Shown here one piece after another: positions 2,343 to 45,369 of a stretch of 64,000 nt of DNA; positions within the stretch are counted from its first letter, which is position 1, and every line of letters starts with the position of its first letter. The stretch covers positions 2,852,001 through 2,916,000 of the forward strand of contig CP134604.1 of NCBI GenBank assembly GCA_021555105.2, in the 5' to 3' direction. The translations under genes were made by a program, and so were the position numbers. The DNA is from Thalassospiraceae bacterium LMO-JJ14. GTDB taxonomy: Bacteria > Pseudomonadota > Alphaproteobacteria > Rhodospirillales > Casp-alpha2. The notes under the pieces are model-generated. The model searched no databases and was not told the origin of the DNA. It worked only from the letters and a program-made list of their open reading frames with translations.

Positions 2343-3176
2343 TCAAGCCGCCGGGCGTTCCCCGGCCGCCGTGGTGCGGTGCATGCGGCGGTGATCGTCC
2401 GGCGCGTAATCGTACTCGGCGAAATGCATGGTGCAGCGGTTATCCCACATCAGGGCGTCGCCGGGCTGCCACTTGTGGCGGTAGATATTGTCTTCGCGGG
2501 TCGCCGATGCTTCGATCGCATCCATGACGTCGGCGTTCTCGGCCTCGCTCAGCCCCAGGATGCGGGTCGTGAAGAACTTGTTCACATAAAGCGCGCGGCG
2601 GCCGGTCTCGGCGTGGCGGCGCACCACCGGGTGGCGTTCCGGTGCAGGCACATCCATCTCGCGATTGCCGTCCGTCTCAGCCGACAGGTTGCGCCGGCGG
2701 ATGGCCTCGCCGGAATGTTCCGCTTCGGCGGCATCCAGTTTCGCCTTCAACGCCGGGTCCAGATCGTCCCAGGCCCGGTACATGTTGCAGATCAACGTAT
2801 CGCCGCGCCCGACGGGAACGGTGATGGCGTGCAGGAACGTCGCCGACGGCGGTCGCGCCACGCAACTGATATCGGAATGCCAGAAATCGTTTCTGGCACC
2901 GCGGCGCTGGGCATTGTTCTCGAGCACCAGAAGGTTCTCGTATTCGGGATGACCGGCGCGGGCACGTAGCGGATGCGGCTCGACGGCGCCGAAGCGTTCG
3001 GTGTAGGCGATCTGTTCGGCAGGGCTGATATCCTGATCGCGAAAAACCAGAACCAGATGATCAAGATACGCCTGCTTGATGACGGCGAAGTCTTCATCGC
3101 TGAGGTCCGGGCCGATCTTCACGCCCAGGACCTCTGCGCCGATATGCGGTGTCAGTTTTCTGATTTCGATGGTCAT
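2343..3176 (-). CDS. TauD/TfdA-family Fe(II)/2-oxoglutarate dioxygenase
   Basis: A 277-aa TauD/TfdA-type dioxygenase, which would couple 2-oxoglutarate decarboxylation to substrate hydroxylation in the cytoplasm. The iron-binding His-x-Asp is in FWHSDISC, the distal His in CTMHFAEYDY, and the 2OG-binding Arg region in DHRRMHRTT near the C-terminus. The ATG at 3176 is chosen because GGGAGGG lies about 6 nt upstream, five codons inside the longest frame. Length and motif order are normal. Taurine, other sulfonates, sulfate esters and aryloxyacids are all possible substrates. No sulfonate ABC transporter is adjacent, so tauD is not assigned. Confidence 0.88.
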   Translation of the reverse strand: MTIEIRKLTPHIGAEVLGVKIGPDLSDEDFAVIKQAYLDHLVLVFRDQDISPAEQIAYTERFGAVEPHPLRARAGHPEYENLLVLENNAQRRGARNDFWHSDISCVARPPSATFLHAITVPVGRGDTLICNMYRAWDDLDPALKAKLDAAEAEHSGEAIRRRNLSAETDGNREMDVPAPERHPVVRRHAETGRRALYVNKFFTTRILGLSEAENADVMDAIEASATREDNIYRHKWQPGDALMWDNRCTMHFAEYDYAPDDHRRMHRTTAAGERPAA

Positions 3177-3508
3177 TTTTGGCCCTCCCAATCCGGGAGT
3201 TTAGACCTGAGAATTCAGGGGGCTCAAGTCCCCTCTTCCGGCTCGCCATGATCTTCCCCTCTCCCCAAGGAGAGGGTGAAGCCCGCGCACCAGTGCATGG
3301 GAGGGAGAGGGACCGGTGATTGAAATCAGCACCCTATGACGTCGTTAGTGAGGTCACCTTGACGGCGGTGTTCCCCTCATGAAAACATCAGACGTGGTAT
3401 TAGCGAATTACGACAATCGATAAACGTGAATTGAATGTCCCTTAGCTTACATTACCGAACTTGCGATCCTAAACCGACCCGATAACGCCGATAAAAGTGG
3501 GAGACTTT
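3177..3508. other. Non-coding region with GC-rich hairpins
   Basis: A 332-bp gap between the outward-facing dioxygenase and hemerythrin genes. It holds a GC-rich hairpin (CCCTCTCC at 3257-3264 pairing with GGAGAGGG at 3269-3276) and a second CCCTCTCC-like inverted copy near 3300-3312, resembling a dispersed intergenic repeat. The right half (about 3380-3490) is AT-rich and probably carries the hemerythrin promoter. I see no credible gene here. Confidence 0.5.
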
Positions 3509-3937
3509 ATGAATACCCCTGCACCTTTTCGACTGCCCGAAGCGTTCAAAATCGGCATATCATCCATCGATGATGATCATCTAAATCTGGTCGAGTCCAT
3601 CAATCGCAGTCTGCTCACTCAAGACGGCAACAACATCAAAGATTTCAAGAAGGTATTCGAAAGTTTTATTTCAGATCTGAAGCAGCATTTCGAAAACGAG
3701 GAAGAACTCATGCGCGAGGCCGGATATCCAGGCCTTGATGATCATGCAAATCATCACAAAGCCTGTTTGAATCAGCTCAACATGTCACTTGAAACCTGCA
3801 ACAGACGCGGATATGCCGACCGCAAAGACATTACCGGATTGTTCCACAATCTTATCGGCATTATCGCAAAGGCGGACTTGAAATTCGTTGAATATCTGTG
3901 GAACGAAGACTTGGTCGACTCCTTCAAGGGCCGCTGA
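3509..3937 (+). CDS. Hemerythrin-like protein missing one His ligand
   Basis: A 142-aa single-domain bacteriohemerythrin, a four-helix bundle that normally binds O2 at a diiron site. Conserved ligands are visible as IDDDH (helix 1), HFENEEEL (His plus Glu) and HANHH (two His). The last motif, normally His-Ile-x3-Asp, reads IIAKAD, so the His is replaced by Ile while the bridging Asp remains. The site therefore has six of the seven usual ligands. The ATG at 3509 has GGGAGA 5 nt upstream; an earlier GTG at 3497 overlaps that ribosome-binding site and is less likely. It converges on sdaA with 6 bp between stops. It may act in O2, NO or sulfide sensing, or iron storage. Confidence 0.85.
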
Positions 3938-3943
3938 CCCGGG

Positions 3944-5326
3944 TCAGCACTCCGTGACGTTGACGGCAAGACCGCCTTCGGACGTTTCCTTGTACTTCGA
4001 GAGCATGTCGACACCGGTCTGGCGCATGGTTTCGATGGCGCTGTCGAGCGGCACGAAATGCGTCCCGTCACCCAGCAGTGCCAGCGATGCCGCGTTGACT
4101 GCCTTGACCGCCCCCATGGCGTTGCGTTCGATGCACGGCACCTGCACCAGGCCACCGACCGGGTCGCAGGTCATACCCAGGTGATGTTCGATGGCGATTT
4201 CGGCGGCGTTTTCGATCTGCTCATTGGTGCCGCCGAGCACTGCGCACAGCCCCGCCGCCGCCATCGCCGCCGCCGAGCCGACCTCGCCCTGGCAGCCGAC
4301 CTCGGCACCGGAAATCGAGGCCTTGGTCTTGATGATCCCGCCGATCGCCGCCGCTGTCAGCAGGAAGTCATCGACCGTGTCTTCGGATGCGTCCGGGCAG
4401 AATTCCAGATAATAGCGGATCGTCGCCGGGATGACGCCGGCGGCCCCGTTGGTCGGCGCCGTGACGATGCGCCCGCCAGCGGCGTTTTCCTCGTTCACGG
4501 CAATAGCGTACAAGCTGATCCAGTCCATCACCGAATGCGCATATTTGACGTTCCGGGTCTGATCCGCTTGCAGCGTGTTTGAAATCTGCCGTGCACGCCG
4601 TTTGACCCTGAGCCCGCCCGGCAACTGCCCGTCGGTGGCGATGCCCCGCTCCATGCAATCCTTCATGACCGCCCAGATGCGGTCCAGGCCGGTACGCACA
4701 TCGTGCTCGGTGCGCAAAACGTTTTCATTCGCCAGCTTCATCTCGGCGATCGACATCTTTGCCGCCTTGCCCATCGCCAGCATCTCGGCGGCACTTTCGA
4801 AGGGATACGGGACGTCGGGATATTCGATACCGCTGTCGACATAATCCGCGAACTCGGAACGGGTGACGACGAACCCGCCGCCGACGGAAAAATAAGTATT
4901 GCTGTGCAGCGGATTGCCGGCGGCGTCATAGGTGACCGCGAGCATGCCGTTGGTGTGCTCGTCCAGCGGGGCGTCGAAATCGAAAATAATATCGTGATCG
5001 ACGTCGAACGCATGCCCCGCCAGCGGCCCGGCATGCAAAGCCTTGTCGTCGATCACCCGGTCGACCAGGGCGCCGGCTGCCGCAGGATCGATGCTGTCGG
5101 GCTTTTCTCCCAAAAGACCCAACACCACGGCGCGGTCAGTGCCGTGCCCCTTGCCGGTATAGGCCAGCGAGCCGTACAACGTAACGACGATGCGCCGGAC
5201 GTCAGCCGTCTTTGCGGCCGTTTCCAGTTCATCCAGAAAGCGGCCCATCGCGACCATCGGCCCGACCGTATGCGAGCTGGACGGCCCGATACCGATTTTA
5301 AACAAGTCAAATACGCTCAGAAACAT
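3944..5326 (-). CDS. sdaA: L-serine ammonia-lyase, [4Fe-4S], single chain
   Basis: A 460-aa one-chain L-serine dehydratase that converts L-serine to pyruvate and ammonia. The N-terminal beta domain carries the diagnostic GIGPSSSHT segment. The C-terminal alpha domain has cysteines in [10 protein letters not shown] and [15 protein letters not shown], which fit iron-sulfur cluster binding. Length matches the fused bacterial enzymes. The start at 5326 follows GGAG. The gene is divergent from the fumarase-type operon across a roughly 200-bp promoter region and convergent with the hemerythrin gene. A specific role in serine-cycle or amino-acid catabolism cannot be told from position alone. Confidence 0.95.
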
Positions 5327-5532
5327 GATCGATACTCCACAACGGCTGGACGGTACTTACTCGTCCTGAGTACGGCAAGCGATGCATCGACATGAAATAT
5401 CGCCCGGGCGACGTCAGTACTGTAATTTTCGAGACAGATGAGAGGGTTACGTGATTGGACACACCCCCCGCCACTCTGTAAGTTTGACCCTACGAACGAT
5501 CCGATGCCCTGCACCGTGTGGAGGAATTTCTG

Positions 5533-6498
5533 ATGATACCGATGCCCGTCGTCAAGGAGACGGCGCTCACCCTCATGGACAAGGCGGCAATCGAAATCCC
5601 GGACGATTATCTGACGGGTCTCGAAAAAGCCGCCGACGCCGAAGATGGCGATCTGTCATCTTTCGTGCTGCATGCCATGCTCGACAACTACAAGGCCGCC
5701 AAGGAAGACCGCCGCGCCATGTGCGCCGACACCGGTGTGCCGCGCTGGTACGTGAAGATGGGCAACGAGGCCCGGCTGGAGGGCGGCCCGGTGGCGCTGG
5801 AGGAAGCGCTGCGCGGCGCCACGGCCGAGGCCACCAACGGCGTGCCGCTCAGGCCCAACCGCGTGCACCCGTTGTGGCGCACGGATCACAACAACAACGT
5901 CGGCCTGAATGCACCGGAAATCGAGTATTCGTTCGAGCCGGACGGCGACTGGATCGACATCATCACCGTGCACAAGGGCGGGCTGTTCGGGACCGACTAC
6001 CGGATGCTGTTCCCGGGCGACGGGATCGAGGGTATCAAGCGCTTCTATCTGGATTGCCTCGTCGCCTTCGGCAAGCGCGGCCTTGCCTGTCAGCCGGCAA
6101 TCATCGGCGTCGGGCTTGGCGGGTCGAAGGACATCTGCTCGGTACTCGGCAAGCAGGCGGCATGTCTCAGGACCGTCGGCGACCGCAATCCGGACCCACG
6201 CACGGCGGCACTGGAGCTGGAACTGATGGAGCTCGGCAATTCCATCGGTATGGGCGCCATGGGGTTCGTTGGCAAGTCGATGGTCATCGACTGTCATATC
6301 GAATGCGGCTACACGCACACCGGCGGCATGCCGATGAGCGTGCATGCCTTTTGCCTGTCATCGAGGCGCGCCGTGGCGCGTATCCATGCAGACGGCCGGG
6401 TCGAATTTCGTACCGACCCGAACTGGTTTACCCCTTACATGAGACGGGAGACGGTCGGATGGGAACCGAACACGGAAACCTTAAGACAGTCAGTCTGA
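5533..6498 (+). CDS. Class I fumarase / L(+)-tartrate dehydratase alpha subunit
   Basis: A 321-aa alpha subunit of the two-subunit iron-sulfur hydro-lyases, the family that interconverts fumarate and malate or dehydrates tartrate. Family signatures are MCADTGVPRW, the VHPLWRTDHNNNVG region and GVGLGGSKD. Cysteines in the CADTG, SVLGKQAAC and HIECGYTH contexts could supply the [4Fe-4S] cluster. The ATG at 5533 has GGAGGAA 6 nt upstream; the GTG at 5518 is too close to that site. It overlaps the beta-subunit gene by 40 bp, implying translational coupling. A sulfur-free class II fumarase is not in the window, so substrate (fumarate or tartrate) stays open. Confidence 0.85.
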   Translation: MIPMPVVKETALTLMDKAAIEIPDDYLTGLEKAADAEDGDLSSFVLHAMLDNYKAAKEDRRAMCADTGVPRWYVKMGNEARLEGGPVALEEALRGATAEATNGVPLRPNRVHPLWRTDHNNNVGLNAPEIEYSFEPDGDWIDIITVHKGGLFGTDYRMLFPGDGIEGIKRFYLDCLVAFGKRGLACQPAIIGVGLGGSKDICSVLGKQAACLRTVGDRNPDPRTAALELELMELGNSIGMGAMGFVGKSMVIDCHIECGYTHTGGMPMSVHAFCLSSRRAVARIHADGRVEFRTDPNWFTPYMRRETVGWEPNTETLRQSV

Positions 6499-7139
6499 AC
6501 CTGCCGGTTACGACGGACGACCTGAAGGACATCGAAATCGGCACGGTGGTGTACCTCAACGGCGTCGTCTATACGGCGCGCGAAGGCGTGTACCAGAAAG
6601 TCATCGCCGACGGCGAACAACTGCCGGCGCATCTGGATGAAATCTCCAACGCTAATTTTCACTGCTCCCCTGCGGCGCGGCAAAACGATGACGGCAGTTT
6701 CACCATCGGCGCCATGACCGGCACCGCGTCGTTCCGCTTTTCCAAGTGGCTCGACAAATGGTTCACGGTGTCCGGCGCCAAGATCATCATCGGCAAGGGC
6801 GGCATGTCGTCGGCGGACTACAAGAAATATTTCGTGCCGCACGGCGCGATCTACCTGACCACGGTCGGCTACGGCACCGGCGCGTTGCTGGGACGCGGCA
6901 TCAAGGGGATCCGCGACGTACACTGGTACGATCAGCTTGGCGTCGCGCAAGCGATGTGGATGGTCGAGGTGGAGAATTTCGGCCCCTTCATCGCCGACAG
7001 CGACCTTGAAGGGAATTCCCTGTTCGAACGCGAAAACGCCAAGACCAGAGCCGGCATCGACAAGCTGTATGAGGGCACGAAATCCCCCGCCCTGCATCGC
7101 TACGGCGAGACCGACGACCGCGGCGAAGAGGTGATCTGA
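6459..7139 (+). CDS. Class I fumarase / L(+)-tartrate dehydratase beta subunit
   Basis: A 226-aa beta subunit, equivalent to the C-terminal half of one-chain class I fumarases. It has the KIIIGKGGMSS phosphate/substrate-loop motif and the YGTGALLGRGI segment typical of the swivelling beta domain. The ATG at 6459 is inside the end of the alpha gene and is preceded by GGGAGACGG; the open frame continues far upstream only because of overlap with alpha. With its partner it would form an oxygen-sensitive alpha2beta2 hydro-lyase. The downstream M23 gene begins 74 bp later with its own ribosome-binding site. Confidence 0.85.
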   Translation: MGTEHGNLKTVSLNLPVTTDDLKDIEIGTVVYLNGVVYTAREGVYQKVIADGEQLPAHLDEISNANFHCSPAARQNDDGSFTIGAMTGTASFRFSKWLDKWFTVSGAKIIIGKGGMSSADYKKYFVPHGAIYLTTVGYGTGALLGRGIKGIRDVHWYDQLGVAQAMWMVEVENFGPFIADSDLEGNSLFERENAKTRAGIDKLYEGTKSPALHRYGETDDRGEEVI

Positions 7140-7213
7140 ACGCTGCAATTACGTGCGGTAATTTCGTTGCGGGTGTATAATCGGCGCTCCGCTTTCATGC
7201 AGGAGAGCCCACG

Positions 7214-8230
7214 ATGTTCAAATATACCATCTGCTTCGTTATTGCTCTGAGCGCATTCATTTCTGCGGCGCCCCGTGAAGCCACCGCGCAAATGACACCG
7301 GAGAGATTCATCAAGAAATTCGATGCCGACAAGGACGGCAACGTCTCGAAGGAGGAATATACCGGCAGACGGCGCCCGTTCAGTTTTTTCGATGCCGACG
7401 GCAACGACATTGCGACAGGTGATGAAATCAATGCCGCCCTCGGTGGCGTGGCAAGCAAGTTGAAACAGAAGCCGATGCTTGACGGGCAGGTGCCGCCCGA
7501 CACGATCGACGCCCGGACCCGCTGTGGGCTCGGCCGCTTCAAACACGACTGCTCGATCAAGGTCGCTATTGAAAAAGGCCTGTTCGAGACGGGCCTGAAA
7601 CCGAAGTTCCCGGATGGGCTCGGCTGCCGGCGCATCGACGAGGCATGGGCGATATCTTATTCCGCGAAACGCGATCAGGAACAGTATCATGGCGGCATCG
7701 ACATGCCGGCCCCCTTCGGCACACCGATGCTGGCCGCCGCGGACGGCACGGTCGTCTCAAAAACCGCGGATCCCATGAGCTACCGGGGTATCGAGCTGAT
7801 CTTGCGGCACAGCCCCGAAGAAACCGGCCTGCCGGTCTGGACCTATACGCAGTACGCCCATTTCAACGAACCCCCCACGGTCAATGTCGGGGACCGGGTC
7901 CGCATGGGACAGAACCTCGGCCCGACCGGCAATTCCGGTTTTCAGAAATCCCAGGGCTCCAGGTCAAGGCCACGCCGCCCTGCGATCCACTTCGCGGTGT
8001 GGTTTTCGGACAAGCCCGGATTTGCCGCCGACCACAACCGCATCATCCCCGTCGACGGCTGGTGGATGGACCCCAACGCCATGTACCGGTTGAAGCCGCC
8101 GTTCGATTCCGCGTCCCTGAAGGCGCTGCCGGATGCGGAAAAGGACGTCGCCATTCCGGTGATGCTGGAAAGCGGCGAGACGGTCCCGGCGAACACCAAG
8201 CTGATCTGGCCGTATGCCTGCCGGCGTTGA
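7214..8230 (+). CDS. Secreted EF-hand plus M23-peptidase domain protein
   Basis: A 338-aa exported protein. Residues 1-25 form a signal peptide ending near ATAQ. Two EF-hand loops follow, FDADKDGNVSKEE (about 35-47) and a shorter FDADGNDIATGDE (about 58-70). A peptidase M23/LytM-like domain occupies about 155-300, with zinc-ligand motif HGGID, the YAHF histidine and the GTPMLAAADGTVV strand. The usual HxH motif reads RPAIHFAV, so the first (catalytic) His is Ala while the zinc-binding second His remains. It may be a calcium-responsive, weakly active or non-catalytic cell-wall factor, like LytM activators. AGGAGAG precedes the ATG. Convergent with the TRIC gene. Confidence 0.8.
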   Translation: MFKYTICFVIALSAFISAAPREATAQMTPERFIKKFDADKDGNVSKEEYTGRRRPFSFFDADGNDIATGDEINAALGGVASKLKQKPMLDGQVPPDTIDARTRCGLGRFKHDCSIKVAIEKGLFETGLKPKFPDGLGCRRIDEAWAISYSAKRDQEQYHGGIDMPAPFGTPMLAAADGTVVSKTADPMSYRGIELILRHSPEETGLPVWTYTQYAHFNEPPTVNVGDRVRMGQNLGPTGNSGFQKSQGSRSRPRRPAIHFAVWFSDKPGFAADHNRIIPVDGWWMDPNAMYRLKPPFDSASLKALPDAEKDVAIPVMLESGETVPANTKLIWPYACRR

Positions 8231-8233
8231 GGC

Positions 8234-8857
8234 CTAATAATCCCGCCCCGGCCTGGCCTTGTAGGATGGTAGCGACAACCCTTTGACGATGCCCAGCGCG
8301 CGCAGTGCAAAGCCCGCGCCGAACCCGGCCGCCGCAGACATTTCGAACGTCACGCCCATCTGGTTCAACAGTATATGCGTCGCCGCTGCCAGTGCGGCAC
8401 AGGTGGCGTAGACTTCCTTTCTGAGGATCAACGGCGTCTCCGCACAGACAACATCCCTGAGCAGCCCGCCGAACGTCGCCGTCATCATACCCATGACGAT
8501 GGCGACCAGCGGCCCGGCGCCGCTGCGGCGCGCCAGTTCGGCGCCCATGACGCCATACAGCGCAATCCCCAGCGCATCCGCCCACAGCAACACCGGATAG
8601 CGCCGCTGCACCCGGTGCGCCGTGAAGAACAGCAACACGGCAATCGCCAGACAAATCCAGATAGCCAGCGGATCGGCGATCCAGAACACGGTCCGGTCGA
8701 GCAGGACATCCCTGAGCGTACCGCCGCCGACACCTGTCAGGCACGCCATCAGGCCGAAGCCGATCAGGTCCATTTCCTTGCGGCTGGCGACCAGCGCGCC
8801 CGACGCCGCAAAGACGATGACCCCCATGATATCGAGAACGGAAATGATTGTGTGCAT
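8234..8857 (-). CDS. TRIC-type cation channel family (UPF0126) membrane protein
   Basis: A 207-aa inner-membrane protein with about seven hydrophobic segments. It is built as two similar halves, each with a glycine-rich GVGGGTLRD-like motif (GVGGGTLRDVLLD, then ATFGGLLRDVVC). That architecture matches prokaryotic homologues of trimeric intracellular cation channels (YicG/UPF0126 family), which conduct monovalent cations. The start at 8857 follows GGGGGAGGAG. Only 3 bp separate its stop from the convergent M23 gene. Physiological role is unknown; potassium or sodium balance would suit a halotolerant organism but is inference. Confidence 0.85.
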   Translation of the reverse strand: MHTIISVLDIMGVIVFAASGALVASRKEMDLIGFGLMACLTGVGGGTLRDVLLDRTVFWIADPLAIWICLAIAVLLFFTAHRVQRRYPVLLWADALGIALYGVMGAELARRSGAGPLVAIVMGMMTATFGGLLRDVVCAETPLILRKEVYATCAALAAATHILLNQMGVTFEMSAAAGFGAGFALRALGIVKGLSLPSYKARPGRDY

Positions 8858-21376: not shown

Positions 21377-22249
21377 TTAAGAAAACGCCTCTTTCAAAGC
21401 GTCACCGACATGCACGGGCGTCGACAGCACGTTGACGCCGGCCGCTTCGAGCGCGGTTTTCTTCGACGCATACGTTCCCTTGTCACCCATGACGATGGCG
21501 CCCGCATGGCCCATTTTCTTGCCCGGCGGGGCGGCGCCCCCGGCAATAAAGGCAATGACCGGCTTCGACATCGCCTTTGCATATTCGGCTGCGTCTTCTT
21601 CCATCGCGCCGCCGATCTCGCCGACCATGACGACGGCTTCGGTACCGGGGAAATTATCGAGCGCTTCCAGGGCATTACGGGTCGTCGTGCCGATCACCGG
21701 GTCGCCGCCTATACCAACGAACGCCGTCTGGCCATAACCCGCCGAGACGATGTTCTGGCACATCAGCGTGCCGAGCGAGCCTGAGCGCGACAGTACGCCG
21801 ACCGTCCCCTTCTTGAAGATGCGCTGATTGAACGCCGGCATGAAGCCCATGAAGGTTTCGTCGACCGTGACGCCACCCGCGGTGTTGGGACCGACGATCT
21901 GCGTGCCGGCTTCTTTTGCCGCCGCCATGACGTACATGACGTCGTGCACCGGCACGTGTTCGGTCAGGCACAGGATCATTTTCGCACCGGCCTCGATGGC
22001 GTCGAGCGCTGCGGCTTTGACGCCCAGCGGCGGAATGAACAGCAACGAAGCATCGAAGCCCGTATCGTTCTGGGCATCGACGGCGGACGCGTGCACCGGC
22101 ACGCCACAGTGTTCGGTCCCTGCCTTTTTCGGGTTCACGCCGCCGACCACGGTGGCGCCGTATTCCTGCATCCGTTCGGTCCAGAAGGTGCCCTGCTTGC
22201 CGGTGATGCCCTGCACCAGAATGCGCGTTTCCTTGCGTGGGATAATCAT
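21377..22249 (-). CDS. ADP-forming acyl-CoA ligase alpha subunit (SucD/SauD-like)
   Basis: A 290-aa alpha subunit of the succinyl-CoA synthetase superfamily. It carries the N-terminal CoA-binding Rossmann domain (VQGITGKQGTFW) and the phosphorylated active-site His in GKKMGHAGAIV. It follows the beta subunit with overlapping signals; the ATG at 22249 has GGGAG 8 nt upstream, while GTG at 22258 is less likely. The operon begins with an acylating aldehyde dehydrogenase rather than TCA-cycle genes such as sucAB. That points to a dedicated acid, perhaps sulfoacetate, instead of succinate. Malate-CoA ligase (mtkB) is another option, but no serine-cycle partners are adjacent. Confidence 0.85.
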   Translation of the reverse strand: MIIPRKETRILVQGITGKQGTFWTERMQEYGATVVGGVNPKKAGTEHCGVPVHASAVDAQNDTGFDASLLFIPPLGVKAAALDAIEAGAKMILCLTEHVPVHDVMYVMAAAKEAGTQIVGPNTAGGVTVDETFMGFMPAFNQRIFKKGTVGVLSRSGSLGTLMCQNIVSAGYGQTAFVGIGGDPVIGTTTRNALEALDNFPGTEAVVMVGEIGGAMEEDAAEYAKAMSKPVIAFIAGGAAPPGKKMGHAGAIVMGDKGTYASKKTALEAAGVNVLSTPVHVGDALKEAFS

Positions 22250-22250
22250 G

Positions 22251-23384
22251 TCATGCACTCCCTTTCGCGGCGTCCACGGCGGCCTTGCAGGCCTCGCTCA
22301 TGTTGGGCAGCGGATCCATGCCGAGCTTTTCCTTCAGCATCCGGATCGCTTCCTCGTCGCCGGTTCCGGCGATGGAAAAGAACACCGGGATATCGGGTTT
22401 CAGCTCTTCCCAGGCGCCCAGCAGCCCTTCCATCATCACGTCGCAACGCGCGAAGGCGCCGCAGAAATTGACGACCAGACTTTTGATGCCGGGCTTGGCC
22501 AGCACCATTTCCAGGGCGAATTTCGCTTTCGTATAGGCCTCGCCGCCGATCTCGCAGAAGTTGGCGGGCGCGCCGCCGTGGTGGCGGACAACATCCATCG
22601 TCGTCATTGTCAGACCGGCGCCGTTGGCCAGTACACAGACGTCGCCGTCGAGTTCGATGTATTTGATCCCGGCAGCCTCACCGCGCGCTTCAAGTTCCGT
22701 CAGCTTTTCCGGCGCACCTTTGGTGGCCAGGTCCTCCTGACGTTTGATGGCGCTGTCATCGAGCGTGAACTTGCAGTCCAGCGCCACGACCGAACCGTCG
22801 CCGGTGACGATCAGCGGATTGATTTCCAGCAGCTCCGCATCGTTGACCATGTAGGCGTCGTAGAGTTTCACCAGCGTGTCCGCGACGCCCGCTTCGGCGC
22901 CCGACAGATCGAGACCGGCGATCAGCGCCGCCGCGTCATCGAGGCTGAAGCCTTTGCGGATGTCGACAGCGTGGGATTTCAGTTTCTCCGGCGTATCGGC
23001 GGCGATCTCCTCGATATCCATGCCGCCCTCGGTCGAGAACATGACCATCGGTCCCTTGGACACCGGATCGTTCAGCACCGCGGCATAGAACTCTCGGCGG
23101 ATATCGGATTTTTCCTCGACCAGCACCTTTTCGACGGTGTGTGTGCCGATGGTCATGCCGAGGATCGCCTTGGCGTGCGCCCTGGCTTCATCCGGGCTGT
23201 CGGCGAGTTTGATGCCGCCCGCCTTGCCGCGCTTGCCGGTCGGCACCTGCGCCTTGACGACGCAGCCGCCCAGCCGCTCGGCCGCTTCCGCCGCCGCATC
23301 CGGATGATATACCAGCATGCTTTCCGGTACCTTGATGCCGCTTTGCGCCAAAAGCGGCTTCGCCGCATATTCCTCGAAGTTCAT
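22251..23384 (-). CDS. ADP-forming acyl-CoA ligase beta subunit (SucC/SauC-like)
   Basis: A 377-aa ATP-grasp beta subunit partnered with the gene just downstream. It shows the N-terminal MNFEEYAAKPLLAQSGI, the VVKAQVPTGKRGKAGGI nucleotide-binding loop, the metal-site segment NDAELLEINPLIVT, and a C-terminal CoA-ligase domain (NFCGAFARCDVMMEGLL). Sequence details differ from housekeeping SucC, for example GGHAPANFC-type positions that read GGAPANFCEIGG, which is also used in malate- and other acyl-CoA ligases. A family C repeat separates it from the upstream dehydrogenase gene by 140 bp. Confidence 0.85.
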   Translation of the reverse strand: MNFEEYAAKPLLAQSGIKVPESMLVYHPDAAAEAAERLGGCVVKAQVPTGKRGKAGGIKLADSPDEARAHAKAILGMTIGTHTVEKVLVEEKSDIRREFYAAVLNDPVSKGPMVMFSTEGGMDIEEIAADTPEKLKSHAVDIRKGFSLDDAAALIAGLDLSGAEAGVADTLVKLYDAYMVNDAELLEINPLIVTGDGSVVALDCKFTLDDSAIKRQEDLATKGAPEKLTELEARGEAAGIKYIELDGDVCVLANGAGLTMTTMDVVRHHGGAPANFCEIGGEAYTKAKFALEMVLAKPGIKSLVVNFCGAFARCDVMMEGLLGAWEELKPDIPVFFSIAGTGDEEAIRMLKEKLGMDPLPNMSEACKAAVDAAKGSA

Positions 23385-23423
23385 TTGGATATTTCCCTTG
23401 GTCTTCGTTTGTTATGGCTTCAC

Positions 23424-23516
23424 GTCATTCCGGCGAAGGCCGGAATCCAGAGAGGGAGTGACACCCATGAGACAGCAGGCCCGCCGTTCTGGACCCCGGC
23501 CTGCGCCGGGGTGACG
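23424..23516. repeat. Palindromic intergenic repeat, family C
   Basis: GTCATTCCGGCGAAGGCCGG at 23424 begins one arm. The other arm ends GGCCTGCGCCGGGGTGACG near 23516. The arms are inverted with respect to each other around a roughly 40-bp spacer. It lies between the dehydrogenase and CoA-ligase genes, so it would be transcribed in their mRNA. The type is common in alphaproteobacterial intergenic regions. Confidence 0.65.
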
Positions 23517-23524
23517 CAAAAGTG

Positions 23525-24955
23525 TTATCGCCCGAATTTTTCCCAATAGCCGCCGAACAGCTCTTCTTCGGAAGGCTTGTCCTCGGGAATGGTTTTGACG
23601 AGATGCGTGATGTTGATGAAGTGCGTGTAGTTCAGGTTGTCGGAAATCGAGTTCCCGGCCCACGTCCCGCCGCCCATGGAAAGCGTGAAGTTGAGGCCGT
23701 TGTTGAAGCCGCCGCCGTTTCCGAACGTGTGCGCCTGATTGACCAGCACGCGGACCACGTCGATTTCCTCGGCCAGGCGTGTCGCATGCTCTGGCACGTT
23801 GGTGTGGATACCGACCGAATGGCCCTTGCCGCAGACATCGAGGATCGTATTCAACTGGCGGATGACGTCGTCCATGTCCTTGGCGCGGTAAACGGTCAGC
23901 ACCAGCGAGAGTTTCTCGTCGATAAACGGGCTGTCGGCATCGGCCGAGCCTTCCTCGACCATGAAGAACTTGTTGCCCTTGGCCTGCTCGCCCAAGCCGA
24001 AGACATCGGCCAGCACGTCGGCATCCTTGGCGATGACGTGGCGGTTCAGATGCCCGTCGACCCAAAGGTTTTCCTCGACCTTGTCCTTTTCCTCGGCCGA
24101 GCAGAGATAGCCCCCGGCGCGCTTGAGCGCATCCATCGCCTTGTCATAGACGCTGTCGAGAATGATCAGAGAGTTTTCCGACGAGCACGAGGTTGAGTTG
24201 TCGAAGATCTTCGACATGGTGATCTTTTCCGCCGCATCGTCGAAATCCGCCGTCTCGTCGATGATCACCGGGACGTTCCCGGCGCCGACGCCAATGGCCG
24301 GCGTGCCCGATGAATAGGCGCGTTTCACGTTGTTCTGCGAGCCGGTGACGATGACCAGATCGGACTGGTTCATGAGCTGCTGCGTCAGTTCCTTGTTCAC
24401 GGGCGCCGGCAGGACCTGCACCAGATCGGCGGGAAGGCCGATTTTTTCAAGTTCGGCGCGCATGTAGCTGACGGTTTTCGTCGTCGTGCCGAGACCGGCC
24501 GGCGACGGCGCAATGATCACCGCGTTGCGGCCCTTGATGGCAAACATTGCCTTGTTGACCGGGGTCGCGGCCGGGTTGGTCGACGGCGTCACGGCAGCGA
24601 CGACACCGACCGGCTTGGCGTATTTGACGAGGCCCTTTTCGGGAATTTCCTCGATGATGCCGACCGATTTGACGCGGCTGAGATCGCGCAGGCAACCGAA
24701 GGTCTTGCGCGTGTTCTTGATGACCTTGCTTTCGACGTTGCCGAGGCCCGTATCCTCAACCGCCAGCTCGGCAAGCTCGCGCGCCCGGCCCGGCTCGTAA
24801 ATCGACCACGCCAGCGCCGTCACCGCTTCATCGACGCGGGCCTGGTCGGCATTGGCGAACTGCGCCATCGCGGCGCGGGCCTTGGCGACCAATCCACGGA
24901 TGATTTCTTTTTCAGGTCCTTGTTCAGATGCTTTTGCAGCAGCTTGGGTGCTCAT
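23525..24955 (-). CDS. sauS: Acylating aldehyde dehydrogenase, sulfoacetaldehyde dehydrogenase-like
   Basis: A 476-aa CoA-acylating aldehyde dehydrogenase. Such enzymes convert an aldehyde, CoA and NAD(P)+ to acyl-CoA. The catalytic Cys lies in FDNSTSCSSENSLI, the cofactor region in TPSTNPAATPVNKA, and the C-terminal AHTFGNGGGFNNGL segment is typical of the EutE/SauS/AdhE group. I favour sulfoacetaldehyde dehydrogenase (acylating) by recollection of family sequence and because xsc, the other sulfoacetaldehyde enzyme, is in the same window. The ATG at 24955 has AGAGGAAA upstream. It leads a unit with the ADP-forming CoA ligase. Other C2-C3 aldehydes cannot be excluded. Confidence 0.75.
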   Translation of the reverse strand: MSTQAAAKASEQGPEKEIIRGLVAKARAAMAQFANADQARVDEAVTALAWSIYEPGRARELAELAVEDTGLGNVESKVIKNTRKTFGCLRDLSRVKSVGIIEEIPEKGLVKYAKPVGVVAAVTPSTNPAATPVNKAMFAIKGRNAVIIAPSPAGLGTTTKTVSYMRAELEKIGLPADLVQVLPAPVNKELTQQLMNQSDLVIVTGSQNNVKRAYSSGTPAIGVGAGNVPVIIDETADFDDAAEKITMSKIFDNSTSCSSENSLIILDSVYDKAMDALKRAGGYLCSAEEKDKVEENLWVDGHLNRHVIAKDADVLADVFGLGEQAKGNKFFMVEEGSADADSPFIDEKLSLVLTVYRAKDMDDVIRQLNTILDVCGKGHSVGIHTNVPEHATRLAEEIDVVRVLVNQAHTFGNGGGFNNGLNFTLSMGGGTWAGNSISDNLNYTHFINITHLVKTIPEDKPSEEELFGGYWEKFGR

Positions 24956-31976: not shown

Positions 31977-33665
31977 TCAGGCGCCCCGGACCGTTACGGT
32001 CTGGTTCTCCGGTATGTTAACCGTCTTTTTCTTGGCAATATAGCCGGCAACAAGATCGTACGCGGGCGGCCCCTCGGTGCCTTCGTTGACCGAAGCCCAG
32101 CCGGACACAACATAGTTGCGGTTGGGATCGATCGGCTTGCCGTCCTTGTTGGTGGTCATGTTGGAAATACGCGAACCGATTTTCTTGCCGACATCGATGG
32201 TGTAGCTCATGCCGCCGACGCGCACCATGTCTCCGCCCTGTTGATAATACGGATCGGGGTTGAACAGGTTATCGGCAACATCTTCGAGGATTTCCTTGAT
32301 GAAGGATCCCTTCATTTCGGTCCGGTACACGTTCGGATAAGTGATCGAGGTGTGGTGGTGCACATGCTCGACGGTGATTTCCTGACCCGGTAACAGGCTT
32401 GAGCCCCAGCGGAAGCCCGGCGACAAGGCGATTTCCGCATCGCGTTCTTCCAAAAGCGCCTGACAGATCAGATCGTCGAAGGTGCCGTTGAAATTGCCGC
32501 GGCGGTAAAGCGTGGTGTCGGCCGTCCCGAGAACCTTTTCGATCTCGTCCTTGTGCGGCGCGCGGATTTTCTCGACCAGTGCCGCCATTTCCGCATCCGG
32601 CGTGATGACATCCGAAAAAACGGGGATCAGCTTGAAGCGGTAGGCATTGACCTTGCCGCCCTGCACATCGAGATCGAGGCGGGACAGGAACTTGCCGTGA
32701 CTGCCCGAGGCGACGAGGATCGCGTTGTTGACGATCTCGACCTTCGGCAGCGCGTCGTGCGTATGCCCGGTCAGGATTACATCGATGCCGTTGACCCGGC
32801 TGGCCAGCTTGCGATCGACGTCAAAGCCGTTGTGCGACAGCAGCACCACAAGCCCGGCGCCCTGGGCGCGTGCATTGTCGACGTGCTTTTGGACTGTCTT
32901 TTCATTGATCCCGAACGACCAGTCGGGCATCAGGTAGCGCGGGTTGGCAACCGGCGTATAGGGGAATGCCTGGCCGATGACCGCAACCTTGACGCCGCCG
33001 CGGTCGAAATAGGCGGTCGATTCGAATACCGGCTCTTTCCATTCCGTATCGGTGACGTTCCCGGCGAGGAACGGAAACGCGAGCATGTCCTTCAGCTCGT
33101 TGACACGGTCCTGCCCATAGGTGAATTCCCAGTGCGCCGTCATGGCATCGAGGCCGAGCGCATTTTGTACCTGAACCATATCCTCGCCCTGGGTTTCAAG
33201 CGACGTAAATGATCCTTGCCAGGTGTCGCCGCCGTCCAGGAACAGGGTGTTGTTCGGCCGTTCGGCGCGGATCGCCTTTACCAGGGTCGCCATGCGGTCG
33301 ATACCGCCGACCTTGCCGTATTCCTTGGCCAGGGATGTGAAGTCCTGGCTGGACATGGCATAGGCTTCGGGCGTGCCGGGCTTGATGCCGTAATGGCCGA
33401 GGAAATCCTTGCCGGTAATATGCGGCGGCAGTCCGTTAACCTCGCCGACACCGATGTTGACGGACGGCTCGCGGAAATAAACCGGGGTCAATTGCGCATG
33501 GAGATCGGTGAAATGCAGAAGCGTCACCTGGCCCAGAGCGTCGAACTCCAGAAGGCTGGACTGATCGATTTTCTGCTGTGCCATGGCACGGCCGAACGGC
33601 ATGCTGGTACCGGTAACGGCTGCCGTTGCGGCGGCAAGATGGAAGAATTCGCGACGGGAGATCAC
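31977..33665 (-). CDS. soxB: Thiosulfohydrolase SoxB
   Basis: A 562-aa dimanganese enzyme that hydrolyses the sulfone group from SoxY-bound thiosulfonate, releasing sulfate. A Tat signal (MISRREFFHLAAATAAV) targets it to the periplasm. Metallophosphoesterase motifs are visible as LHFTDLHAQL, DGGDTWQGS, LLSHNGFDVD and LTGHTHDALPK. Length is normal for SoxB. The start is a GTG at 33665 with AGAGGG 8 nt upstream. It follows soxA by 78 bp in the sox operon. Confidence 0.97.
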   Translation of the reverse strand: MISRREFFHLAAATAAVTGTSMPFGRAMAQQKIDQSSLLEFDALGQVTLLHFTDLHAQLTPVYFREPSVNIGVGEVNGLPPHITGKDFLGHYGIKPGTPEAYAMSSQDFTSLAKEYGKVGGIDRMATLVKAIRAERPNNTLFLDGGDTWQGSFTSLETQGEDMVQVQNALGLDAMTAHWEFTYGQDRVNELKDMLAFPFLAGNVTDTEWKEPVFESTAYFDRGGVKVAVIGQAFPYTPVANPRYLMPDWSFGINEKTVQKHVDNARAQGAGLVVLLSHNGFDVDRKLASRVNGIDVILTGHTHDALPKVEIVNNAILVASGSHGKFLSRLDLDVQGGKVNAYRFKLIPVFSDVITPDAEMAALVEKIRAPHKDEIEKVLGTADTTLYRRGNFNGTFDDLICQALLEERDAEIALSPGFRWGSSLLPGQEITVEHVHHHTSITYPNVYRTEMKGSFIKEILEDVADNLFNPDPYYQQGGDMVRVGGMSYTIDVGKKIGSRISNMTTNKDGKPIDPNRNYVVSGWASVNEGTEGPPAYDLVAGYIAKKKTVNIPENQTVTVRGA

Positions 33666-33743
33666 GGCGCAGACCCTCTGTACTGGAATTTGAAAATTAG
33701 ACCGGAGGGACGATCACGCCCCTCCGGTCCAGGCTGTGGTTTG

Positions 33744-34553
33744 CTAGTTGCGAACTGCCGGCGTTTCGACCGGAAGTCCCATGCCACGAGATTTCACGTA
33801 AAGTTCGAGGTTCACATACTCATCCGAACCATAGGCATACGGTTTCGCGCGAACCATCTTGTTACATCCGCGGAAGCGGCGGTGTACGGAACCCACCTTC
33901 TGCCATTTCAGACGGTACGTCGGGAACCCGTTGATCTGCCCCTGTGTCAGGGTATTGGCACGGATGATCCCGCCGGCATAGTCTTCGTGGCAATGCTTGC
34001 ACGCCAGATCGAGCTGGCCACGGCGCTCGTAATAGAACGCCTTGCCCTTTTCGAATGCGGCGGCAGCGGGGCCGTCGATCTTGACGTTGACCGGCATGCC
34101 GAGCGACTGGTTGTTGATGAACACCGTCATCGACAACATTTCACCCGATTCCCACTTGTACGGCTTGGCTTCCATGCGGTTCTCGAGGCAGTAGTTGATC
34201 TGCTGCTCAACGGTCTGCACTTTGCCGAGTTCCTGATCGTACTCAGGATAGCTCGCCGCAACGCCCTTCATGGTTTCTCCAGAATCGCCGTGACAACTGG
34301 CGCAGGATTTACCGGCCTTGCCGTCAACCTTGCTCCAAAGTTCGGCACCCTGTTCAGCCCAGAGCATGCCCGGGTTCTGGAAGTTGTCGACCTGCATGGC
34401 CCGGCTTTCGTCGGTCATGTAGGTGAAACCGCTTCGGCGGTCATCGACTTGATATTGTCCCCAATCCGCAGCATCGGCGGTAGCGGCGAACACGCTTAAA
34501 CCGACAGCAACGGCAGCCGACAGAAACGTGATCTGTTTCCAGTTCATTTTCAT
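33744..34553 (-). CDS. soxA: SoxA c-type cytochrome, dihaem form
   Basis: A 269-aa periplasmic cytochrome that with SoxX conjugates thiosulfate to the SoxY cysteine. After a signal peptide (about 1-28), haem motifs occur at CASCH (Cys84-His88) and CKHCH (Cys185-His189). The catalytic/haem-ligand cysteine is Cys230 in RFRGCNK. Two haem sites place it in the dihaem SoxA class rather than the monohaem class of some bacteria. GGGAGG precedes the ATG. It lies between soxZ and soxB. Confidence 0.97.
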   Translation of the reverse strand: MKMNWKQITFLSAAVAVGLSVFAATADAADWGQYQVDDRRSGFTYMTDESRAMQVDNFQNPGMLWAEQGAELWSKVDGKAGKSCASCHGDSGETMKGVAASYPEYDQELGKVQTVEQQINYCLENRMEAKPYKWESGEMLSMTVFINNQSLGMPVNVKIDGPAAAAFEKGKAFYYERRGQLDLACKHCHEDYAGGIIRANTLTQGQINGFPTYRLKWQKVGSVHRRFRGCNKMVRAKPYAYGSDEYVNLELYVKSRGMGLPVETPAVRN

Positions 34554-34585
34554 AGGTGTTTGCCTCCCAATGTTTTGTTAGCCGC

Positions 34586-34915
34586 TTATGCTACGGTGAT
34601 GCTCGCGGTTTTCTTATAAACGGAACCGTCGTCATCAGTCCAAGCGAAGGCAAACTCACCACTTTCTTCGACCTTCGCAAAGAAGGACATGTATGGATTT
34701 GCCGAAATAGCCGGAGCCCAGTCAGAACTGAACAACGGCTTGCCGTTAAACGTGACTTCCATCTTGTTGATGATGCTCCGGGGGATCAGCTTGCCGTCCT
34801 TACCTTTACGGCGACCGGATTCCATCTTGTGCGAAATCAGTGTCTTGATTTCGACGATCTCGCCTTTCGCAGCCTTCTTCTGGACACGAACGCGGGGTTT
34901 TACATTTTTAGCCAT
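34586..34915 (-). CDS. soxZ: Sulfur-carrier complex subunit SoxZ
   Basis: A 109-aa immunoglobulin-fold protein that binds SoxY. Typical segments are PRVRVQKKAAKGEIVEIKTLISH and the C-terminal WTDDDGSVYKKTASITVA. It has no signal peptide, which is normal, since SoxZ is exported with Tat-bearing SoxY. AAAGGAG precedes the ATG. It is 21 bp after soxY. Confidence 0.97.
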   Translation of the reverse strand: MAKNVKPRVRVQKKAAKGEIVEIKTLISHKMESGRRKGKDGKLIPRSIINKMEVTFNGKPLFSSDWAPAISANPYMSFFAKVEESGEFAFAWTDDDGSVYKKTASITVA

Positions 34916-34936
34916 GATATTCTCCTTTTGCTCGCG

Positions 34937-35416
34937 TCAGCCGCCGCAGCCGCCGATTGTGACTTTAACTTCCTGCTGGAAACGGAACGCACTGCCGTCG
35001 CTCATTTCGGCGACTGCAACAACGTTCTGCGTACCGGCAAGACGCATACGCGTCGACGCCGAAGCTTTCCCGCTCATCGGTGTGAAGTACATCGAAGCGA
35101 CTGCCGGCGCCGGGTTGCCGTCAGCGAACAGGTGCACGGCTTTCACATAGTTATCGGCGGTCATTGGGCTTTCGACCGTGAAACCGACCGGAACCGTGTT
35201 GCCGTTTTCGGCGATTTGCGGAAGATCGAGCGTGATCTTGCCTTCGGCCGGTTTTTTACCGACCAGTTTCATGACTGCTTCATCGACCATTTTCTGGTCT
35301 GCATTTGCGGTGCCGCTCGTCAAAACGACGCCCCCGGCGGCGACCATCGTCGCTCCGGCAGCCAGCAACAGTGCCTCGCGGCGCGTCAATGCTGAAAGTG
35401 CTTGTTTCGTGGACAT
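34937..35416 (-). CDS. soxY: Sulfur-carrier protein SoxY
   Basis: A 159-aa covalent sulfur carrier. The Tat signal contains TRREALLLAAG. The C-terminus ends in the swinging-arm motif GGCGG, whose cysteine holds thiosulfate-derived sulfur through the Sox cycle. AGAGGAA precedes the ATG. It lies 25 bp downstream of soxX. Because no SoxCD is found in the window, sulfane sulfur left on SoxY may go to another acceptor. Confidence 0.97.
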   Translation of the reverse strand: MSTKQALSALTRREALLLAAGATMVAAGGVVLTSGTANADQKMVDEAVMKLVGKKPAEGKITLDLPQIAENGNTVPVGFTVESPMTADNYVKAVHLFADGNPAPAVASMYFTPMSGKASASTRMRLAGTQNVVAVAEMSDGSAFRFQQEVKVTIGGCGG

Positions 35417-35441
35417 GTCTGTTCCTCTTGGTTTTTTATGC

Positions 35442-35894
35442 TTACTTGAGGGTTTTCAGATAAGCGACGACATCCTCGACCTCTTCGGCGTTGAGGATCG
35501 GCTTATCCTTGAATTTATCGAGTACTCGGTGAAAACCGTTAACGCGATAAAATGCCGGCATGATGGTGTCGGGGTTGATCACCTTTGCGTTGATGACCTG
35601 CATACGAAGCTGTCCTTCGCTGTAACGCCCCGCAACACCGTCTAGTGACGGGCCGATCTCACCGTGGAACGGCTGAGCCGACAATGCAGTCACTTGATGA
35701 CACGCCAGACAGTTCCCAAGCTTGCGGTTGGTGAACGTCTTAACCCCCTTTTGGGGATCGCCGGCTTTGCCGGTCAGTGATTTGTTTACGGAATTATCGA
35801 CGACCTCGTATTTCACGAGATCGGCGGCATAGGCCGTCCCTGCCAGCAAAAATGCAGCAGCAAGGGCCGGAACAAATGTTCTCAACTTTGGCAT
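35442..35894 (-). CDS. soxX: SoxX c-type cytochrome
   Basis: A 150-aa monohaem cytochrome, partner of SoxA. A signal peptide (about 1-23) precedes the haem motif CLACH (Cys62-His66), and a likely Met ligand is in DTIMPAFYR. The ATG at 35894 is chosen because GGGAGGCGAT precedes it and the signal peptide begins there; the longer frame to 35927 adds an implausible N-terminus. It is the first gene of soxXYZAB, facing a 168-bp AT-rich upstream region. Confidence 0.96.
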   Translation of the reverse strand: MPKLRTFVPALAAAFLLAGTAYAADLVKYEVVDNSVNKSLTGKAGDPQKGVKTFTNRKLGNCLACHQVTALSAQPFHGEIGPSLDGVAGRYSEGQLRMQVINAKVINPDTIMPAFYRVNGFHRVLDKFKDKPILNAEEVEDVVAYLKTLK

Positions 35895-35950
35895 AGGGCA
35901 ATCGCCTCCCAATAAAATGTGCCTCATTCAGGAGCGATCATTTTCCTTGT

Positions 35951-42963: not shown

Positions 42964-44601
42964 TCAGTCCTTTAGAATAATCGGCTCCGGTGGCGCGATA
43001 CCGCGGATCATGTCGGCGGCTTTTTCGGCAATCATGATGGTCGGCGCATTCAGATTGGCCGACGGCATCATCGGCATCACCGAAGCATCGACGACGCGCA
43101 GCCCTTCCAGCCCGTGAACCCGAAGCCGGTCATCGACGACCGCCGTCGGGTCGGTATCGGGCGCCATGCGGCAGGTCCCCATCGGATGGAACGTCGTCGT
43201 GCCGCGTTCCTTGGCAACCTGCAGCAGTTCGTCATCCGACTGCACGTCCGCACCGGGATAGATCCAGTGATCGAAATAGCGTTGCATGGGTTCGGTCGTC
43301 AGCATCCTGCGTGCCAGCTTCATCGCCGCCAGCAGGACCCGGCGGTCTGTTTCGTGTTCCAGATAACGCGGTTGAATAACCGGTTTTTCGAACGGGTCGG
43401 ATGACTTCGCGCGCACGTATCCGCTGCTTTCCGGACGCTGCTGCCAGGATGCAATGGTCATACCCGGGAAGTCGTCGAGTTCGGACTGCACCCCTTCCTT
43501 GTAGCTGGCGGGCGTGAAGGTGAACTGCACGTCGTTATAGTCGATATCCGGATGCGAGCGCCAGAAGCAATAGACCAGGGTCGGGCTCAGCGACAGGATG
43601 CCCTTACGCGACATGCCCCAGCGCGCGATCTCGCTGAGCAGACGCAATCCCTTGGTCCGTTCGTTGAGGCTCTGGACATTCTTGACCCGCGCCGTGAAGC
43701 GGGGTGCGTAATGATCGCGGAGGTTTTCACCAACCCCCGGCAGGGCGTGCATGACCTCGATGCCGAGCGATTTCAGGAAATCGGGCGCACCGATCCCGGA
43801 AACCTGCAGTAGTTGCGGCGAATTGATGGACCCGCCGGACAGAATTACTTCCTTTCGCGCAATGACCTGCATCGGTTTGCCGTTGCGACCGCCCTTGTTA
43901 TAGGCGACCCCGGTCGCGCGCTTGCCGTCGAGAATGACACGGGTGGCATGCGCATTTGTAATGACACGGACATTGCCGCGCTTCACCGCCGGGCGCAGGA
44001 AAGCCCGCGCCGTCGACATCCGCCGGCCGCCTGCGATGGTCCTTTGCGAGTACGTCGCACCTTCCTGCTTGGCGCCGTTGTAGTCGTCCGCCTTGGGAAT
44101 GCCGATGGTCTGCACGCCTTCGATAAAGGCATCCGTCAGCGGGTGCGACCAGTCGATATCAGTGACCGTCAACGGCCCGCCCCGGCCACGAAAAGTGTCA
44201 TCGCCCGCACCGACCCGGTTTTCGGAACGCTTGAAGTACGGCAACACGTCGGCATAGCCCCAGCCCCGGTTGCCGCGTTGCGCCCAGCCGTCGTAATCCA
44301 TGCGGTTGCCGCGCGTATAGATATGCCCGTTGATCGAGCTTGAGCCGCCCAGCGTCTTGCCGCGCGGCTGCTGTATGGCGCGCCCGGCGGTCCATTCCGT
44401 CGGTTCGGTTTCATACAGCCAGTTAATGCGCGGGTTCTTGATGGTATAGATAAACCCGGCCGGAATATGGATGAAGGGATCCCAGTCCGACGGCCCGGCT
44501 TCGAGCACGCAGATGCTGACGTTCGAGTCTTCGCCGAGCCTGTTGGCGAGAACGCTGCCCGCCGAACCCGCACCGACGATCACATAATCAAAAGTTTCCA
44601 T
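42964..44601 (-). CDS. GMC-family FAD oxidoreductase (choline dehydrogenase-like)
   Basis: A 545-aa glucose-methanol-choline oxidoreductase. The FAD motif is VIVGAGSAGSVLANRL, the GMC signature 1 region GKTLGGSSSINGHIYTRG, signature 2 GSINSPQLLQVSGIG, and the catalytic His lies in FHPMGTCRM. It oxidises an alcohol to an aldehyde; choline and longer-chain or terpene alcohols are possible. No betB-type aldehyde dehydrogenase or choline transporter is adjacent, so betA is not assigned. It is convergent with DUF1028 and follows the sulfotransferase gene with 75 bp between. Confidence 0.92.
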   Translation of the reverse strand: METFDYVIVGAGSAGSVLANRLGEDSNVSICVLEAGPSDWDPFIHIPAGFIYTIKNPRINWLYETEPTEWTAGRAIQQPRGKTLGGSSSINGHIYTRGNRMDYDGWAQRGNRGWGYADVLPYFKRSENRVGAGDDTFRGRGGPLTVTDIDWSHPLTDAFIEGVQTIGIPKADDYNGAKQEGATYSQRTIAGGRRMSTARAFLRPAVKRGNVRVITNAHATRVILDGKRATGVAYNKGGRNGKPMQVIARKEVILSGGSINSPQLLQVSGIGAPDFLKSLGIEVMHALPGVGENLRDHYAPRFTARVKNVQSLNERTKGLRLLSEIARWGMSRKGILSLSPTLVYCFWRSHPDIDYNDVQFTFTPASYKEGVQSELDDFPGMTIASWQQRPESSGYVRAKSSDPFEKPVIQPRYLEHETDRRVLLAAMKLARRMLTTEPMQRYFDHWIYPGADVQSDDELLQVAKERGTTTFHPMGTCRMAPDTDPTAVVDDRLRVHGLEGLRVVDASVMPMMPSANLNAPTIMIAEKAADMIRGIAPPEPIILKD

Positions 44602-44676
44602 CCCGCACCCATTTCAATACCGGTTTATCCCGGCATTATGAAAATACTAGGCACCGGACCGGAGCTTGAAAAGCGT

Positions 44677-45354: not shown

Positions 45355-45369
45355 CCCGTCACCGGCTTG

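Follow-up and report, generated by a model that had tools for sequence, protein, structure and literature searches.

Sulfoacetate, a common organic sulfur compound, arises when taurine and sulfoquinovose are degraded, and the question raised here is whether three genes of Thalassospiraceae bacterium LMO-JJ14, whose genome is a single contig of 3.89 Mb, encode a module for its conversion to sulfoacetaldehyde. The genes are located on the minus strand (24955-21377) of the window analyzed, i.e., a stretch of 64,000 nucleotides (contig CP134604.1, positions 2,852,001 to 2,916,000), and encode, in order of transcription, an aldehyde dehydrogenase, a ligase beta subunit and a ligase alpha subunit. 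A preliminary description of this window had recognized an acylating aldehyde dehydrogenase followed in the same orientation by a two-subunit coenzyme A (CoA) ligase, and had suggested a SauS-SauCD route into Xsc; both the gene coordinates and family scans, which assigned the first protein to the acylating aldehyde dehydrogenases and the other two to an ATP-grasp/CoA-ligase pair, agree with the arrangement described. We estimate, with a probability of about 0.78, that these genes (sauSCD) convert sulfoacetate to sulfoacetaldehyde, which would feed Xsc and then Pta-type and SoeABC-type enzymes.

In the proposed pathway, SauCD would form sulfoacetyl-CoA, ADP and Pi from sulfoacetate, ATP and CoA through a phosphohistidine of the succinyl-CoA synthetase (SCS) type, and SauS would use NAD(P)H to reduce sulfoacetyl-CoA, yielding sulfoacetaldehyde. 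From sulfoacetaldehyde and phosphate, Xsc, whose gene is located 21 kb away, would form sulfite and acetyl phosphate; the latter would be converted to acetyl-CoA by a Pta-type protein (C1:3548728-3549651), while the sulfite would be oxidized by a sulfite dehydrogenase of the SoeABC type (C1:1.995 Mb). We infer substrate, direction, cofactor and uptake from features that can be read from the sequences, i.e., family membership, clade, motif replacement, adjacency and co-occurrence. Membership in the SauS family, the co-occurrence with xsc across genomes and the TTT-sauSCD-xsc-pta-soeABC runs found in relatives from the same order together point to sulfoacetate and favor the suggested route into Xsc.

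Probable identification of the dehydrogenase as SauS

The dehydrogenase gene (sauS, 23525..24955, minus strand) encodes a protein of 476 amino acids, which is most likely SauS, a CoA-acylating sulfoacetaldehyde dehydrogenase predicted to act as sulfoacetyl-CoA reductase. It scored 787 bits against NCBIfam model NF047625 (cut-off 600), with a full-length match covering residues 16-476. In the phylogenetic tree it is nested inside the clade of SauS proteins linked to sauCD or xsc (support 96/99), while SauS proteins linked to SauT form the sister clade (49-51% identity).

Probable identification of the ligase as SauCD

Both ligase genes are also on the minus strand. One (sauC, 22251..23384) encodes a SucC-like ATP-grasp CoA-ligase beta subunit of 377 amino acids (Pfam ATP-grasp_2 and Ligase_CoA), and the other (sauD, 21377..22258) encodes a SucD-like alpha subunit of 293 amino acids (CoA-binding, phosphohistidine; Pfam CoA_binding and Ligase_CoA), starts with GTG and overlaps sauC by 8 bases. 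Based on the comparisons below, this pair is very probably SauCD, an ADP-forming sulfoacetate-CoA ligase. The preliminary description had allowed that it could be a succinate or malate enzyme; this possibility did not hold up, as the cut-offs of the SucC, SucD and malate thiokinase beta-subunit (NF010647) models were all missed and the succinate-binding residues are replaced. Specifically, sauC scored 361 bits against the SucC model (cut-off 370), as compared to 597 bits for the genome's own tricarboxylic acid (TCA) cycle sucC, and 271 bits against NF010647 (cut-off 604), by which MtkAB malate thiokinase was rejected; sauD scored 331 bits against the SucD model (cut-off 336). The genome carries three SucD-type genes. 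As one sucC/sucD pair adjoins sucA, sucB and mdh, the TCA enzyme is encoded elsewhere than by sauCD. No TCA-cycle genes adjoin sauSCD, as had been stated previously; on one side, the locus is flanked by zur/znu-type genes, whose names come from reading the sequence and not from family scanning, and on the other by a MarR regulator and ectABC-ask.

A maximum likelihood tree built from concatenated subunit sequences (beta plus alpha) placed the window pair and 16 other sauS-linked pairs in one clade of 17 (support 100/100), which contains sauS-linked ligases only and takes in the xsc-linked pairs from Indioceanicola and Rhodococcus. The SucCD pairs of E. coli, Bacillus and LMO-JJ14 itself, as well as a ppc-linked MtkAB-type pair, fell outside this clade, so that the window ligase groups with neither type, and housekeeping SucCD was rejected as its identity. 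The third SucCD-type pair of the genome (locus L108, 7035-9091; C1 at about 3.559 Mb) adjoins NuoF-like and molybdopterin oxidoreductase genes and shows a very long branch and an altered RSGTFYTD motif.

In succinyl-CoA synthetase, the C4 carboxylate of succinate is bound by an alpha-subunit Tyr and by backbone amides of the beta-subunit GIV motif, and in HpfYZ this Tyr and GIV give way to His and Asn, i.e., the signature His160/Asn312 (PMC11489063). Among the sauS-linked ligases, Tyr is replaced by Thr in all 17 complete SauD alpha subunits of the clade (Thr164 in the window), and GIV is replaced by AFA in 32 of 33 SauC beta subunits, including that of the window, and by AIA in the remaining one; SucC of most relatives has GIM instead of GIV. 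The sauS-linked ligases nonetheless keep the GHAG phosphohistidine loop and the GPN and RSG motifs, which suggests that the ligase chemistry is intact and that the pocket for the distal group of the substrate has changed. The HpfYZ signature sites are occupied in the window ligase by Thr (alpha) and Ala (beta), so HpfYZ 3-sulfopropionate-CoA ligase was also rejected, and the sauS-linked ligases carry the pocket signature for neither succinate nor 3-sulfopropionate. If the assignment holds, Thr (alpha) and AFA (beta) represent markers that tell SauCD from ligases annotated as succinyl-CoA synthetase. A relative encoded on an Enterococcus gilvus plasmid, considered as a candidate HpfXYZ, proved to be a ptb/buk cluster.

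Co-occurrence with xsc and conservation of gene order

The xsc gene, which the preliminary description had placed in the same window, is at 48204-46423 on the minus strand; its product, predicted to consume the sulfoacetaldehyde formed by SauS, scored 942 bits against TIGR03457 (sulfoacetaldehyde acetyltransferase; cut-off 676). Among 248 genomes of the order, SauS above the NF047625 cut-off was found in 49 and Xsc (E value of 1e-180 or better) in 57. xsc was present in 45 of the 49 genomes with sauS as compared to 12 of the 199 without it (P about 2e-33; Fisher test) and, outside the family to which the window belongs, in 17 of 20 genomes with sauS as compared to 6 of 191 others (P about 2e-17); as the genomes are related, these P values overstate independence, although the pattern recurs over several families. 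Four of the 49 sauS loci end at a contig edge. In the 45 readable loci, the genes directly 3' of sauS are sauC-sauD (43 loci), a gene for a SauT-like ligase (1) or a two-subunit CoA-transferase (1), and this recurrence excludes chance as the reason for the adjacency of sauS, sauC and sauD. The distance between sauS and xsc, 21.5 kb in the window, ranges from 17 to 35 kb in the window's family where contigs permit measuring.

Relatives present these genes side by side. In three genomes of the order (G056, G081 and G032), sauS-sauC-sauD-xsc are found on one strand, in two of them (G056 and G081) together with TctA and TctC on that strand and with soe genes behind xsc. The cluster in G056, where SauS and Xsc are 70% and 77% identical to those of the window, is a single run of TctA..TctC-sauSCD-xsc-pta-soeABC, with the phosphotransacetylase gene between xsc and soeABC. 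A plasmid of Indioceanicola profundi carries xsc (divergent)-IclR-pta-TTT-sauS-sauC-sauD along with genes for an oxidoreductase resembling SoeABC; a block of the same type is found in Azospirillum, with xsc not in view, and Rhodococcus DK180 has xsc, MFS, sauSCD, IclR and TauE genes together. In Paracoccus, an AMP-binding ligase gene occupies the sauCD slot, surrounded by xsc, IclR and MFS genes, and Caballeronia and Ruegeria likewise have sauS with an AMP-binding ligase. Because of these clusters, sulfoacetate is by far the likeliest substrate. IclR and MFS genes flank sauSCD in some relatives, and the sau cluster of Cupriavidus necator H16 includes the IclR-type SauR.

Other types of genes were also found beside sauS. 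In one genome (G117:C138, 988-8998), sauS is followed by genes for both subunits of a CoA-transferase (TIGR02429/TIGR02428) and then by xsc and genes for a membrane protein (PF03601) and a phosphotransacetylase, which from this gene content appears to be a CoA-transferase version of sulfoacetate activation. A plasmid of the archaeon Haloterrigena (2925-8553) encodes a TTT transporter, a SauS-family protein (676 bits) and an annotated CoA-transferase. In one genus group (loci L030 and L150), the genes immediately 5' of sauSCD encode a dioxygenase of the TauD family and a regulator of the IclR type. It is tempting to generalize, although we would put the chance of being right at slightly below even, that aerobic dissimilation of sulfoacetate is encoded in alphaproteobacteria as a self-contained pathway (TTT-sauSCD-xsc-pta-soeABC), which costs one phosphate bond less per sulfoacetate molecule than activation by SauT, and that the activation slot adjacent to sauS is swappable (SauT, SauCD, fused ADP-forming ligase or CoA-transferases), with all versions apparently converging on sulfoacetyl-CoA.

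Remaining genes of the proposed pathway, uptake and direction

Outside the window, the Pta-type protein scored 351 bits against NF006045 (cut-off 282), and the genes at C1:1.995 Mb encode proteins with 66, 68 and 52% identity to the SoeABC set of Indioceanicola, soeA being an open frame of 957 amino acids. The place of such genes in the clusters, together with knowledge of SoeABC, suggests that this molybdo-oxidoreductase is a sulfite dehydrogenase. A second, divergent Xsc-type protein (C1:3630299-3631987; 678 bits vs. the cut-off of 676) is encoded in a paralogous cluster, with a Pta-like gene and a GMC gene as neighbors.

Two sets of observations weigh against sulfoacetate consumption by SauCD and SauS. 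The first concerns uptake, which is the weakest link of the proposed route. No transporter or IclR gene is linked to sauSCD in the window, the MFS proteins of the genome show at best 26% identity to sau-linked MFS proteins, and its six TctA homologues show 27-38% identity to TctA proteins encoded beside sauCD or sauT; one of its TctA proteins is 47% identical to that of Oceaniglobus, and the best IclR match (52%) is distant, at 3.52 Mb. The window lineage thus retains only sauSCD, where relatives have sauSCD with xsc, pta, TTT and soeABC. This lack of a linked uptake system would fit a reverse flow, in which sulfoacetaldehyde from taurine or isethionate would be converted through sulfoacetyl-CoA to sulfoacetate with formation of ATP, and the sulfoacetate excreted. 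ADP-forming ligases are reversible, and SqwD/SqwKL operate in that direction in fermenters (PMC11489063, PMC12890257). In addition, the GMC oxidoreductase encoded 3' of the window xsc could yield sulfoacetaldehyde from isethionate. On the other hand, the ligase genes of relatives are located in clusters for uptake and desulfonation (TTT or MFS, xsc, pta, soeABC), which fits consumption, and Xsc would compete for the sulfoacetaldehyde. Overall, we consider the reverse flow unlikely. No canonical taurine-pyruvate aminotransferase was identified among the 10 class III aminotransferases of the genome, two of which were scanned further without receiving a Tpa name.

The second set concerns the substrate. 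The nearest SauS relatives from outside the family (Shimia, Roseovarius and Oceaniglobus; 74-75% identity), which group with the window SauS (support 100/98), are encoded without sauCD, beside genes for BKACE-like proteins, biotin carboxylase, thiolase, acyl-CoA dehydrogenase, enoyl-CoA hydratase or fused ligases. Such neighbors would be compatible with another acid/aldehyde couple, i.e., malonate semialdehyde, succinate semialdehyde, 3-sulfopropionate or an omega-sulfonated beta-oxidation product, with the proximity of xsc being incidental. As the Shimia, Roseovarius and Oceaniglobus genomes also carry xsc, however, their SauS may still reduce sulfoacetyl-CoA, which, we speculate, is made there by other means; these loci possibly serve to derive sulfoacetyl-CoA from longer sulfonated acids. 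The strong association with xsc at the genome level, the direct sauSCD-xsc runs, the absence of the HpfYZ signature and the scores under the SucCD cut-offs all argue against another couple, which we regard as quite unlikely. Finally, although SucC and SucD are the best general family names for its subunits, it is highly improbable that a housekeeping succinyl-CoA synthetase or a malate thiokinase has been mistaken here for SauCD, given the sub-cut-off scores, the separate sucCD with sucAB/mdh, the fully supported separate clade and the loss of the succinate-binding residues.

Comparison with known systems

Every enzyme step of the sulfoacetate route proposed here is already known, SauS-SauCD from Bilophila and Xsc-Pta from aerobes, and the route thus represents a recombination of known modules. 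Bilophila wadsworthia, as presented in papers citing Liu et al. 2023 (PMC12625764, PMC12890257), likewise uses an acylating sulfoacetaldehyde dehydrogenase (SauS) with a two-subunit ADP-forming sulfoacetate-CoA ligase (SauCD); unlike LMO-JJ14, a probable aerobe judging from gene content and relatives, it is described as an anaerobe that passes sulfoacetaldehyde via TauF to isethionate and IseG instead of to Xsc. The genus of the window further differs in having no transporter linked to sauSCD. The sauST system of Cupriavidus necator H16, with the MFS transporter SauU (Weinitschke et al. 2010, as cited in PMC12625764), resembles the system predicted for the window in its aerobic use of sulfoacetate by way of sulfoacetyl-CoA and SauS, but activation there is described as relying on AMP-forming SauT rather than on ADP-forming SauCD. 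SqwD/SqwKL (a sulfo-TK variant) and HpfX/HpfYZ (Enterococcus gilvus; PMC11489063) also combine an acylating aldehyde dehydrogenase with an ADP-forming ligase for a sulfonated C2/C3 acid; these, however, act in the ATP-forming direction in fermenters, and His160/Asn312 of HpfYZ are not found in the window ligase.

The preliminary description regarded an aerobic SauCD-SauS-Xsc route as notable. While the combination is supported, its novelty is smaller than assumed there, as predicted sauSCD and xsc in a probable aerobe have already been published for the sponge symbiont OTU3 (Arenicellales), which has predicted sauSCD with TTT as well as xsc and pta in its genome (PMC12625764, 2025); the same study found sauSCD in 3 of 99 non-sponge bins. 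OTU3 is a gammaproteobacterium with a linked TTT, whereas the system described here is alphaproteobacterial and family-wide, with sauSCD directly beside same-strand xsc in relatives. The present case represents a well-documented aerobic version of this kind of system. If the proposed route is correct, the ADP-forming type of activation, which has been described for an anaerobic gut bacterium, would be standard in aerobic alphaproteobacterial sulfonate mineralization, and its ATP cost would be below that of the SauT route across a large alphaproteobacterial group.

Neighboring features

The order of genes around sauSCD is the same in three close relatives (L011-L013). sauS and sauC are separated by a spacer of 140 bp (23385..23524) that contains a long imperfect, repeat-like hairpin (predicted fold of -64.5 kcal/mol), the arms of which are the sole matches to its core motif within the window; spacers of about the same length are found in two of these relatives (L011 and L012). 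Between sauSCD and xsc, the window carries soxB, soxA, soxY and soxX (31977-35927), and the stretch holding sauSCD, sox and xsc looks like a sulfur-metabolism region. Genes for an FkbM methyltransferase, a sulfotransferase and a GMC oxidoreductase are located 3' of xsc on the same strand (42964-46200); this GMC oxidoreductase shows 44% identity to the one encoded beside xsc in Paracoccus and is a possible isethionate dehydrogenase.

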